In this document: positions 13,038-35,218 of the stretch, piece after piece
Layout of the letters: every line of letters begins with the position of its first letter
Position numbering within the stretch: the first letter of the stretch is position 1
Origin: Candidatus Korarchaeum sp.
Lineage (GTDB): Archaea; Korarchaeota; Korarchaeia; Korarchaeales; Korarchaeaceae
Direction: 5' to 3'
Length of the DNA: 35,218 bases
Assembly: GCA_020833055.1 (NCBI GenBank)
Contig: JAJHQZ010000010.1
Location: 1-35,218, forward strand
Notes under the pieces: generated by a model
What the model was told of the DNA's origin: nothing
Database searches by the model: none
Seen by the model: the letters and a program-made list of their open reading frames with translations, nothing else
Translations under genes and position numbers: made by a program

Positions 13038-13188
13038 CTTTCAATCCTCTTTTCATCGAGACCATGAACAGATTTCTTTATCTGGATCGCGTGAGGAACC
13101 TTTCAATCCTCTTTTCATCGAGACTTCGTGAGTACTTGAGTCATCGTCAATTCGCACTACTTACTTTCAATCCTCTTTTCATCGAGAC
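13038..13188 (-). CRISPR. Three-repeat CRISPR mini-array, no cas genes nearby
   Basis: Three identical 25-bp repeats lie at 13038-13062, 13100-13124 and 13164-13188, separated by unrelated spacers of 37 and 39 bp. Read on the minus strand, each repeat begins GTCTCGATG and ends GGATTGAAAG. The terminal ATTGAAAG is the usual archaeal crRNA 5' handle, so the array is transcribed leftwards from a leader at higher coordinates. No cas gene lies in the window, so processing and interference must come from elsewhere, or the array is a relic. The perfect repeat identity argues against long decay. Confidence 0.93.
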
Positions 13189-13303
13189 TCGGTGCTACTT
13201 ACCGCCACATACCGGGCGCAGAGGAACGGAGGATCTTTTATTTATAAACATTGTGAGTATGCACACGGGAGTCATAGTTAACTTTTCGCTGCTGAGGGAC
13301 CTC
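13189..13303 (-). promoter_or_regulatory. CRISPR leader, homologous to the right half of the dispersed element
   Basis: This sequence begins at the base after the last repeat. It is roughly 85% identical, with small indels, to 21390-21512. A TATA box reads TGTTTATAAATAAAAG on the minus strand (13235-13250). It would start transcription near 13217, about 30 nt before the first repeat, as expected for an archaeal leader. A short dyad (TATG/CATA) lies upstream of the TATA box. The far end abuts the stop of the RACo-like gene at 13306. Confidence 0.75.
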
Positions 13304-13305
13304 CG

Positions 13306-14808
13306 CTAATATCGGAGTCCCCTCTCCCTCAACATCAAGCCCTCGATGAAGATGTCCGGAAAGTTCTGCTTTCCGGTAAGGTCGATGTGCCTCGCTGTCC
13401 TCAGTATGCCCTTAGCTAACTCGTAGGCCCTCCTACTCATCATAATCGATTTAGCCCCAGTGAGAGAGGAGTTGCCGATGGATATGAAGTTATCCTCAGG
13501 AACTGGAGGTATCAATCCTATCCTGAGGGCGTCCTCATACTTCAAATTGCTCCCGAAGGTCCCTGCTATGACTACCCTCTCCGGCTCGATCGAGGCTTCA
13601 TCTATGAGGATCCTCCAAGCTGAGTAAATAGCGCTAACTCCCTTCTGAACTTCCCTGATATCCCTCTGAGTTATCTCTATCTTGGGATCATCTGAAAGAG
13701 AGATAGACCCCTCGAATTCCCTCCTCATCCTCCCGCTCTCATCAATAAATCCTATCCTGAGCATCTCGGCTACAGCCGATATTAGCCCGGAGCCCGTGAG
13801 CCCTAAGGGCCTCCTCGAGTACTTCAACTTCCACCTCCCATCCTCGAATCTAACCTCGCTAACGGCCTCCTCTATCCCCCCCACTCCTCCTGCGTTCATC
13901 TCGAACGCCGAACCTGCTGGAGCTGTAGCCACGAGTACTGAATCGCCCGTATCCAATACTACCTCGCTATTGGTACCGAGATCTATGAGTAAGTAGGGGA
14001 TCCCTATCCCCAGGAGCCTAGTTGTGACTACATCAGCTAGTGCATCGGATCCAGCGAAGCCGCCTATCGCTGGCGGAATTATAGCAATAGCTTCGGGCAG
14101 CTCTATTCCTATCTCTAGAGCTGGAACTGTCAGCCAGTCCTTCAGGGGAGGATCGAAGGGGGCTGAGGAGAGGGATCTTATATCTAGGCCCAGCAGTAAG
14201 GCTTGCATGACGGAATTGGCGACTATAATCAGGGAGGATATACTCTCCCTATCCCCAGTTAGTTTGGATACGAGGGACTCGATCCCCTCCACAGCTAGGA
14301 GCCCCATATCCTCTCCTCTCATCGCCCTCTCGATCCTAGTGATTAGATCGCTCCCCTTAGCGATCTGGGGGTTCCTGACGAAGCTCTCAGCTATTACCTT
14401 CCCGCTACTGAGCTCGATGAGGGAACCGACTATGTTAGTAGTCCCCAGGTCCACAGCTAGGCCTAGGCCGCGCGCATTAGGAAGGTGCGATGTGTCTAGC
14501 TCCAGCTTGGGCATTATCCCCGAGACTGAAGCAGTGGGGACTATCTCAGGTATCTCAACTACGACATCGCTCAACACTCTAGTCATGCAAGCTAATCTCA
14601 TCCCTCTCTCCAGAGCTCCGGAGAGCGCTTCCTCTATCCTAGGTTCAGATACTTCACCCTCAATTATCCTAACGGCACAACCGCCACAGAAACCAGCTCC
14701 GCCGCAAGGTAGGGGGAATCCGAGCTTCTCACTCAAAGCTTCTCCGATTATCTCGCCTCTCTCAACTTCGAGATCGACATCCGAGGGGATTACTTTTATT
14801 CTCACCAT
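13306..14808 (-). CDS. RACo-like reductive activator of corrinoid proteins
   Basis: The protein has an N-terminal plant-type [2Fe-2S] domain with Cys35, Cys41, Cys44 and Cys74 (PCGGAGFCGGC, LAC). A linker and an ASKHA-fold ATPase domain of the DUF4445 type follow (GLAVDLGTTNIVGSLI, LLIDLGTNSEVVL, AGTFGSN). This layout is that of RACo proteins, which use ATP to drive reduction of inactive Co(II) corrinoid cofactors back to Co(I). The C-terminal [4Fe-4S] pair of RamA is absent. No corrinoid protein gene is adjacent; the nearest methyltransferase is the MetE-like gene at 22 kb. I chose the ATG at 14808; another in-frame ATG lies at 14817. A TATA box (minus, 14833-14846) makes either nearly leaderless. 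About 500 residues. Confidence 0.85.
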   Translation of the reverse strand: MVRIKVIPSDVDLEVERGEIIGEALSEKLGFPLPCGGAGFCGGCAVRIIEGEVSEPRIEEALSGALERGMRLACMTRVLSDVVVEIPEIVPTASVSGIMPKLELDTSHLPNARGLGLAVDLGTTNIVGSLIELSSGKVIAESFVRNPQIAKGSDLITRIERAMRGEDMGLLAVEGIESLVSKLTGDRESISSLIIVANSVMQALLLGLDIRSLSSAPFDPPLKDWLTVPALEIGIELPEAIAIIPPAIGGFAGSDALADVVTTRLLGIGIPYLLIDLGTNSEVVLDTGDSVLVATAPAGSAFEMNAGGVGGIEEAVSEVRFEDGRWKLKYSRRPLGLTGSGLISAVAEMLRIGFIDESGRMRREFEGSISLSDDPKIEITQRDIREVQKGVSAIYSAWRILIDEASIEPERVVIAGTFGSNLKYEDALRIGLIPPVPEDNFISIGNSSLTGAKSIMMSRRAYELAKGILRTARHIDLTGKQNFPDIFIEGLMLRERGLRY

Positions 14809-21037: not shown

Positions 21038-21280
21038 CTATCAGGATTTGGTAGTATAATAACTATCCTTAAAAGATATAAGTATTTCGGTTCTTGTAGT
21101 ACTTCCTCTGTGTCTCTTCATCCAAGGGGCATAGAAGAATGATAATGAGGTCACATTAATCCGGGGACAAATTAGTGTATATTAAAATCTTTCGGCGGTA
21201 ACCATTATTTCATAAAAATTTCTCAAGAAATTATCTTATATGTTAATCGAAGCCCTCGTCCTATATGCTAGGGATAGGAG
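21038..21280. other. Gene-free stretch with one palindrome
   Basis: This AT-rich region between the importer promoter and the dispersed element shows no convincing gene. It contains the importer TATA box (minus, about 21075-21083). It also holds a perfect 16-bp dyad AATTTCT-CA-AGAAATT at 21217-21232 that could be a regulator site. Confidence 0.4.
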
Positions 21281-21512
21281 CCGTTGTCGGGTAGTTAACA
21301 TTTACTACCCGTTCCATCTCGGATAGCACTGTTGCTATCCTCGATGGCTTTTCAGGGGCAACAGTTCCTCTCATCCTGTGCATGCCCATTCGGTGCTACT
21401 TACCACCACATACCGGGCGCGGAGAATTAAGGATCTTCTATTTATAAACATTGCGAGTATGACACATAAGAGTCATAATAGTTAACTTTTTGGGAACTGC
21501 TGACGAACCCTC
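21281..21512 (-). ncRNA. Complete copy of a dispersed structured element, putative leftward RNA
   Basis: This non-coding unit of ~232 bp is repeated in the window. On the plus strand its left half has CGGGTAGT-N8-ACTACCCG (21289-21312). Then comes CCATC-tc-GGATAGCA-N4-TGCTATCC-tc-GATGG, an extended hairpin that is preserved in the 35-kb copy despite an extra three-base insertion in its internal loop. Longer pairings (GGGCA/TGCCC, CGGT/ACCG) follow. The right half matches the CRISPR leader at 13189-13303. It carries a minus-strand TATA box (TGTTTATAAATAGAAG, 21435-21450) and a TATGAC-N8-GTCATA dyad. Transcription would begin near 21417, run left through the hairpins and end at the CGGGTAGT stem. 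I find no reading frame in it. The RNA is inferred from promoter plus structure. Confidence 0.55.
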
Positions 21513-33534: not shown

Positions 33535-35109
33535 ATGCCGATATGCCAGAGGGATTGCCCTGATGCCTGCTCTCTCATAATAGAGGGGAATGAGCTAAGA
33601 GGGGATCCAGGACATCCTGTGACCCGGGGCTTCGCTTGTAAGAAGGCCAAGAACTTCATGAGGTATTACAGGGAGAGGAGAGTGCTCTATCCTCACTTGA
33701 GGGTGGGAGATGGTTTCGAGAGGATAAGCTGGGAAGAGGCCCTAAGCATGATCTCGGATAGGCTGAAGTACGTTATCGAGAATTACGGCCCGGAGGAGGT
33801 CTTAGTTTACAATTACTCTGGTACAACTGGCTTAATAAACTATCATTACCCTCTTAGGCTCTTCAACGCTATAAAGGCCACTCTAGTCAAGCATACTCTC
33901 TGCGATGAGGCCGGTGAGCTCGCATTAGAACTTCACTTCGGATCTAAGTATGGAGCATTCCCTGAGGACATGGAGAGAGCGAAGCTCCTCGTCATCTGGG
34001 GCGCTGACCTATCATCCACGAGCATTCACGCGTACAGAATAGCTGCTGACCTCAGAGCTAGGGGGGAGATATATGTCGTGGATCCGAGGGTCACTAAGGC
34101 CTCTATGCTAGGTAAGCATCTGAGACCTAAGCCGGGCACGGATACGCTACTAGCGGCTGGAGTCTCCTGGTATATAATAAACGAGTTCGGGGTCGATTCA
34201 GGATTCATAGAGAAGTACACTGAGGGTTTCGATCATTATGCATCGCTTATCTCGAAATACAATCCGGATCTCGTTGAAAGGCTAACATCCGTCAGCAAGA
34301 AGGAGATAAGGGATCTGGCGGAGAGCTACTCGGAGCTTAAGCCCAGCGTGACTTACATAGGGAAGGGAGTCCAGAAGACCAAATACGGCGCTGAGGCCGT
34401 GAGGCTGATATCCTTAATCCCGGCGTTAGTGGGAGTGCATAGGGGCTTCTTCTACTCTAACTCCTGGAGGGATTTCGATACAGATTACTTGGAAGCCTCC
34501 CACCTCGGGAGCGGGAGGAAGGTGAATATGCTTGACGTCCCCCGCTTGCTAGCTGACGGCAAATTCAAGTTCATATATATCTACAACTCGAACCCGGCTG
34601 CAACTCTCCCCAATGCGGCTCTCTTCAGGAAAGGAATGATGAGGAAGGACCTCTTCAAGGTAGTCCACGAAGTAGTTTGGTCGGAGACCGCGAAGCTAGC
34701 GGATATCGTGCTCCCAGCGACGAGTATGCTGGAGCAGGATGACTTCGTGGCCAGTTGGTGGCATCAGTACTTCGGTTACAGCAGGAAGGTAATGGAGCCC
34801 ATGGGGGAGAGCAAGCCAAATTGGTGGGTTACTAATGAGTTGGCTGAGAGAATGGGTCTTGAATGGCTCAAGGAAGATCCTATGGATGCCATAAGGAGAG
34901 CTCTCTCTAAGAGCAGGATGATAAAAAATTTCGAGGAAATTCTGAATAAGCCTTATGTAAAACTGGAATATCCTCCAAAAGATCTCTATCAAACGCCATC
35001 AGGAAAAATAGAATTTTATAGCAAGATCGCGGAGGAGCTCGGATACTCCCCTCTGCCGGTAGTAGCTTGGGAGGAGGTGGATGATGATTATCCGTTGTCG
35101 GGTAGTTAA
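33535..35109 (+). CDS. Molybdopterin oxidoreductase, 3'-truncated by the dispersed element
   Basis: This is a CISM-type Mo/W bis-MGD oxidoreductase. The N-terminal [4Fe-4S] motif is Cys4, Cys8, Cys12 and Cys35 (CQRDCPDAC, GFACKK). The likely metal ligand is Cys123 in HTLCDEAGE. The cofactor-binding domains follow (VIWGADLSSTSIHAY, YNSNPAATLPN, VLPATSMLEQDDF, TPSGKIEFYS). Family members normally continue after a YPLxLxT motif into a C-terminal dinucleotide-binding domain of 100 or more residues. Here VDDDYPL is followed at once by SGS and a stop, which are encoded by the left end of the element starting near 35092. The 524-residue product is therefore probably non-functional. No electron-transfer partner is adjacent, apart perhaps from the small ferredoxin. 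Confidence 0.88.
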   Translation: MPICQRDCPDACSLIIEGNELRGDPGHPVTRGFACKKAKNFMRYYRERRVLYPHLRVGDGFERISWEEALSMISDRLKYVIENYGPEEVLVYNYSGTTGLINYHYPLRLFNAIKATLVKHTLCDEAGELALELHFGSKYGAFPEDMERAKLLVIWGADLSSTSIHAYRIAADLRARGEIYVVDPRVTKASMLGKHLRPKPGTDTLLAAGVSWYIINEFGVDSGFIEKYTEGFDHYASLISKYNPDLVERLTSVSKKEIRDLAESYSELKPSVTYIGKGVQKTKYGAEAVRLISLIPALVGVHRGFFYSNSWRDFDTDYLEASHLGSGRKVNMLDVPRLLADGKFKFIYIYNSNPAATLPNAALFRKGMMRKDLFKVVHEVVWSETAKLADIVLPATSMLEQDDFVASWWHQYFGYSRKVMEPMGESKPNWWVTNELAERMGLEWLKEDPMDAIRRALSKSRMIKNFEEILNKPYVKLEYPPKDLYQTPSGKIEFYSKIAEELGYSPLPVVAWEEVDDDYPLSGS

Positions 35110-35218
35110 CATTTACTACCCGTTCCATCTCGGATAGCACTGCTGCTATCCTCATTGATGGCTTTCAGGGGCAACGGGGCTCCCCTCATCCTGTGTATAT
35201 GCCCATTCGGTGCTACGT
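35092..35218 (-). repeat. Left part of another copy of the dispersed structured element
   Basis: The first 51 bp (from CCGTTGTCGG) are identical to 21281-21331. The rest matches to CGGTGCTAC, with a few substitutions and three small indels. It keeps both major stems: CGGGTAGT/ACTACCCG, and CCATC...GATGG enclosing GGATAGCA/TGCTATCC. A closing pair CCGTTG/CAACGG is complete in this copy. The window ends before the right half with the TATA box. The copy lies inside the molybdopterin oxidoreductase gene, in the same orientation as the other copies. Confidence 0.85.

Follow-up and report, generated by a model that had tools for sequence, protein, structure and literature searches.

An IS607-type MITE of Korarchaeia with a predicted promoter and a TnpB guide-RNA scaffold

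The window analyzed here is a stretch of 35,218 nucleotides that makes up an entire contig (C10) of the 1.39-Mb, 25-contig assembly of a Candidatus Korarchaeum genome (G000). It contains a repeat that is a non-autonomous MITE belonging to a family of IS607-type transposons of Korarchaeia that carry TnpB. Very probably, the MITE unites transposon ends, a TATA promoter and a complete guide-RNA scaffold, and it is most likely mobilized in trans, with its guide RNA loaded into a TnpB that is likewise supplied in trans.

Copies of the element and their insertion sites

All four pieces of the repeat listed in a preliminary description of this DNA were found. The full-length copy lies on the minus strand at 21281-21510, with the transposon left end (LE) at 21510, the right end (RE) at 21281 and GG at both ends; the boundary at 21510 is 2 bp inside the one first proposed (21512). 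MITEs of this type are approximately 224-260 bp long. A second minus-strand copy at 35092-35218 (90% identity) is cut by the contig end, and the LE tip of another at 1-16, previously given as 1-18 and also on the minus strand, is cut by the contig start, placing both ends of the window within copies of the element. The right-half piece on the minus strand, from 13189 to 13303-13307 (81% identity), retains the LE, the TATA box and part of hairpin 1. The three partial copies are thus present as sequences, but two of them are contig-end truncations and the piece at 13189 comes from a truncated element that is joined to a CRISPR array. At 35092, a molybdopterin-oxidoreductase-like open reading frame (33535-35109, PF00384) enters the MITE at its 3’ end, and the MITE provides its stop codon.

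The suggestion that the unit had multiplied was borne out, with at least 12 copies or remnants in the genome: a similarity search (E down to 1e-83) recovered at least six full copies together with partial ones, and a covariance model of the RNA gave 12 matches. We found about ten matches in G010, a genome of the same genus assembled as one contig (1,590,757 bases), and many in G022, which has contigs labeled Candidatus Methanodesulfokora washburnensis; Candidatus Methanodesulfokora is one carrier of the family. Most genomes of the same genus gave no match or one weak match, the RNA together with its tnpB was also present in a Bathyarchaeota genome, and the conserved core found no match in the viral contigs searched. 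This patchy, multi-copy spread is that of a mobile element. At one pair of loci (L107/L036; G000:C4:24791 and G010:414682), the right flank of the MITE is the same in both species and the left flank differs; the right-end tip is duplicated in the G000 copy.

Empty sites were sought in G010 with queries made of joined flanks. The C11 copy (ATA-GG...GG-AATATAATCC) has an empty counterpart TTA-GG-AATATAATCC, and the C4b copy (CTA-GG...GG-AAGTCG) has the counterpart CTA-GG-AAGGTCG; the remaining matches were consistent, although less clean than these two. GG also stands at nearly all element boundaries. The two clean empty sites show insertion at GG without further target duplication, as in the IS607 family, which targets GG and exchanges at GG with no other duplication (PMC6188088, PMC4058570). 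Of 21 left ends, 16 have an A directly before the GG (binomial p = 4e-6), and the right end of the element itself is CGG, suggesting that an AGG-like TAM would spare the donor junction.

Parent elements of the MITE

The LE (GGGTTCGTCAGCAGTTCCCAAAAAGTTAACT, 21475-21510, minus strand) carries a GTTAAC motif, a putative TnpA site, and the LE alignment shows that it is common to the tnpA/tnpB parents. The same termini bracket tnpB alone at three loci (L052, L054 and L043). G022 has two loci at which both ends lie 1.2 kb apart with a 382-aa TnpB between them on the minus strand of the element, and a TnpB of G010, 83% identical to that of G022, is bounded by the same right end as the MITE. The RuvC motifs D, E and D are present in the L043 and L052 proteins when the translations are read by eye, and the MITE is homologous to the tnpB 3’ end and RE of both elements. 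Two further G010 elements with MITE ends encode a TnpA with a MerR-type HTH and a serine recombinase, followed by TnpB, identifying them as IS607-type; the domains detected in these tnpA+tnpB parents were Resolvase and MerR in TnpA and a TNB domain in TnpB.

The element at L043 (G010:623133-624254) has a MITE-type right end, and for this reason its TnpB terminates in another frame than the related proteins of G022 (DSNRAIRDGTGSKC), which suggests, from the sequences compared, that ends have been exchanged between MITEs and tnpB elements. The genome that harbors the window has three tnpA-bearing copies, all of them interrupted within the element by a contig end, and for this reason no intact tnpB of either type (tnpB-only or IS607) was found in its assembly. 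The missing tnpB speaks against the model proposed below, although contigs break at just these places: besides the three interrupted copies, contig C23 ends exactly at the point at which the tnpB-only element starts in G010.

With these homologies, the ‘left half’ of the preliminary description becomes the transposon right end with the last codons of tnpB, and its ‘right half’ becomes the left end, the promoter and the TnpB zinc-finger codons (CPVCGG, stop, APNG). The repeat had been assigned to no described RNA or transposon class; that view no longer holds, as its homology is to the reRNA scaffold and the termini of a TnpB/IS607-family transposon. All full MITEs share a single deletion and a segment with the TATA box that is missing from the tnpB parents, indicating that they were amplified as MITEs. 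An older remnant of another kind (G000:C7:29248, G010:890173) represents a straightforward internal deletion.

Promoter, guide-RNA scaffold and CRISPR junction

The TATA box (GTTTATAAAT) reported on the minus strand was located at 21440-21449. Among 15 MITEs, mean pairwise identity falls from 0.88 in the left end to 0.53 in the spacer that follows, rises to 0.83 in the TATA block and drops to 0.58 in the interval between TATA and RNA; it is then 0.88 for hairpin 1, 0.49 for the linker, 0.93 for the RNA core and 0.96 for the right end. The TATA box is therefore conserved well above its two flanking spacers, and its distance to the GCCC of hairpin 1 is 28-31 nt in most copies; among the copies that look damaged, those on C3 and C4b of G000 (G0C3 and G0C4b) have weakened TATA boxes. 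This near-fixed spacing, together with the covariation of the RNA described below, supports the predicted leftward RNA gene. The MITE looks like an element that keeps what a transposable guide-RNA gene needs, with the RNA and not the protein conserved, as far as can be read from sequence.

The reRNA/omegaRNA scaffold of about 140 nt (21281-21420, minus strand) is homologous to the tnpB 3’ end and RE and consists of hairpin 1, a core, a kink-turn-like hairpin, a terminal hairpin and a closing helix. Hairpin 1 (21380-21420, minus strand) derives from the TnpB zinc-finger codons (CPVCGG, in-frame stop, APNG) and forms GUGCCC/GGGCAC at the RNA 5’ end. The second hairpin (21314-21347, minus strand) pairs CCATC/GATGG and GGATAGCA/TGCTATCC around tandem G-A pairs, which are accompanied in most copies by a 3-nt bulge that makes them kink-turn-like; the copies in the window and on C9 lack the bulge, and the change from TC to TCATT noted earlier in the internal loop is this tandem G-A loop without or with it. 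The terminal hairpin (21288-21311, minus strand; CGGGTAGT/ACTACCCG) holds the GTTAAC motif of the RE in its loop. By analogy with the TnpB reRNA (PMC8612924), the predicted guide is the host DNA directly 3’ of the RE, at 21261-21280 on the minus strand for the full copy and different for each copy.

The hairpins first described are present, and the minus strand of 21281-21417 folded better than all 200 of 200 shuffled sequences (z = -5.1). RNAalifold applied to a MAFFT alignment of 23 right ends returned a closing helix (CCGUUG/CAACGG) together with the CCAUC/GAUGG and terminal hairpins, and 97.9% of cells were paired in this structure, compared to 18-54% when it was slid. In an alignment of 38 distinct sequences that was fitted to the structure and leans towards it, both-side changes occurred at 17 of 26 pairs (96 cells, compared to 7-15 in the slid controls), and the MAFFT alignment, which is independent of it, gave the same fold; one pair of the terminal hairpin, for example, is AU in 16 cases and GC in 14. 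The covariation for which the preliminary description had proposed to look is thus present, and the secondary structure is conserved, as is expected of a TnpB reRNA/omegaRNA. The stems still pair while loops and stem lengths vary between copies, and stops and loop indels interrupt the reading frame. The RNA-like half is indeed structured and covarying, but it extends further right than proposed, with hairpin 1 falling in what had been taken for the promoter half. The GTTAAC motif of the RE is missing in three copies, and the conserved stem-loop that bears it may be kept for TnpA binding and not for the RNA. Rfam searches at gathering and permissive thresholds gave only sub-threshold matches and its families were rejected as candidates; an H/ACA or C/D sRNA, considered by eye from an ACA near the 3’ end and GA motifs, was set aside after the tnpB homology was found.

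The half-MITE at 13189-13303 abuts a three-repeat CRISPR array (13038-13188, minus strand; repeat GTCTCGATGAAAAGAGGATTGAAAG) in the leader position, with its TATA box facing the array, and may be the putative promoter/leader of that array. G010 has the same half-MITE/CRISPR junction with a single repeat, showing that the fusion is common to the two species. A second array, with another repeat (AATCCCGGAAAGGGAGTTGAAAG-like), lies at positions 430-700 of locus L016 (G000:C1), near a solo repeat of the first type. Is the right half simply a CRISPR leader that has spread through the genome? The junction in the leader position in two species speaks for this idea; however, where either genome has further full-leader arrays or solo repeats of this type, these have an unrelated leader in common (GTGGAAAAGGTTAAATAGG), and full MITEs have no adjacent CRISPR repeats. 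With other leaders unrelated, we rejected a CRISPR leader as the source of the right half and give the idea almost no probability.

Origin, function and relation to known systems

We propose that the MITE arose by an internal deletion in which tnpA and almost the whole of tnpB were lost and which would have left two ends for the IS607-type TnpA (a serine transposase), which inserts at GG, the TATA promoter and the guide-RNA scaffold up to the right end. TnpA supplied in trans by IS607 elements of the same genome most likely moves the copies. Each copy most likely transcribes an reRNA with a 3’ guide taken from the host DNA beside the insertion; this reRNA would load into a TnpB from elsewhere and guide it to cut the empty target (AGG plus guide), which would favor retention and spread of the MITE. 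A further-reaching form of the proposal, to which we assign somewhat less than even likelihood, is that these are guide-RNA-only transposons, selected to keep a promoter and a TnpB guide RNA while TnpA and TnpB act in trans, with each insertion guiding against its own empty site and a truncated copy recruited as a CRISPR promoter/leader.

Alternatively, the MITEs might be decayed deletion remnants of tnpB elements, with hairpins that persist through youth or as a DNA substrate of TnpA and an RNA that is not used. The older remnant mentioned above is such a simple internal deletion, and some copies have a weakened or lost TATA box or lack GTTAAC. This explanation is nonetheless unlikely in view of the mosaic conservation, in which spacers at 0.49-0.58 lie beside a TATA box, hairpin 1 and core at 0.83-0.93, and of stem pairing that is maintained despite changed loops and stem lengths; moreover, the mechanism in PMC4058570 implies that IS607 TnpA takes a double-stranded DNA substrate and would not need the RE hairpins. 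We regard it as very improbable that the RNA is a small RNA domesticated by the host, such as a regulator, that a transposon has copied. The predicted promoter and RNA do stand alone, and the kink-turn-like hairpin is the kind of motif to which L7Ae binds in archaea, but the genomic position is not fixed: nearly all copies lie at different GG-flanked sites and the element is absent from most genomes of the genus.

Mobilization as an IS200/IS605-type PATE by a Y1 TnpA was also evaluated. The genome has an intact IS605-type TnpA+TnpB element (L086, region of G000:C3:48177), and PATEs with a comparable anatomy have been described (PMC3119063, PMC7290912). However, L086, the only Y1 element of this genome, has a left end unlike that of the MITE (hairpin AGCCTCGCCCTTTAGGGCGGGGA), the MITE-bearing genomes G010 and G022 have no Y1 TnpA, and the exact MITE ends belong to serine-recombinase elements. 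An IS605 Y1 TnpA is accordingly disfavored as the mobilizer, to the point of being extremely improbable.

Our preferred reading, an IS607/TnpB MITE that would be served in trans, places the element close to several known systems. It has the ends, GG boundaries and GG empty site of IS607 insertion sequences (serine-recombinase TnpA plus TnpB) and, like them, no terminal inverted repeat; unlike them, it encodes no protein. PATEs and PATE-like IS605 relics are likewise short, transposase-free and derived from TnpB transposons: in Halanaerobium, one PATE-like element has retained the LE, the final 58 nt of tnpB and the entire RE (PMC7290912), and HqIRS71 still has tnpB C-terminal sequence (PMC3119063). 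Short relics that keep the tnpB end and RE are therefore already known in IS605 families from these accounts, which, in contrast to the MITE, concern IS605-type elements and in the text available describe no guide-RNA role or dedicated promoter (PMC7290912, PMC3119063).

In ISDra2, the TnpB reRNA extends from the 3’ end of tnpB into the flanking DNA (PMC8612924), and the MITE RNA shares with this and other reRNAs/omegaRNAs the tnpB 3’ end plus RE, a (here predicted) guide from the flank and a helix that connects the 3’ end with sequence upstream (PMC8612924, PMC10097598). It differs in forming a transposable unit by itself, equipped with a TATA box, in details of its fold and in the kink-turn-like hairpin. 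The RAGATH-18-derived reRNAs of bacterial IS607 TnpB also are IS607 TnpB guide RNAs with a kink-turn-like motif and a G-rich TAM (PMC11061315), to which the predicted TAM of the MITE would correspond; however, their reRNA does not overlap the tnpB 3’ end as the MITE-type reRNA does (PMC11061315), and the MITE RNA gave no RAGATH-18 match in Rfam even at the permissive threshold, placing it outside that family. As far as the literature searched shows, within incomplete coverage, the IS607 type, the dedicated promoter, the conservation of RNA over protein and the CRISPR fusion are new, and we found no paper on stand-alone TnpB guide RNAs in that literature. The 2021 work of Altae-Tran reportedly notes omegaRNA loci that lie apart from the gene of their nuclease, and we therefore claim no priority for stand-alone omegaRNAs.

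Cas12 is considered to descend from TnpB, whose guide RNA is as a rule linked to the tnpB gene itself. A mobile unit with only a guide RNA and a promoter would separate the guide from the nuclease, which bears on the possible origin of stand-alone guide genes, tracrRNAs and CRISPR arrays. The element described here is a case of a MITE that may parasitize both a transposase and an RNA-guided nuclease, and its half-copy, which takes the place of the leader beside a CRISPR array, brings TnpB-transposon and CRISPR systems into direct contact.
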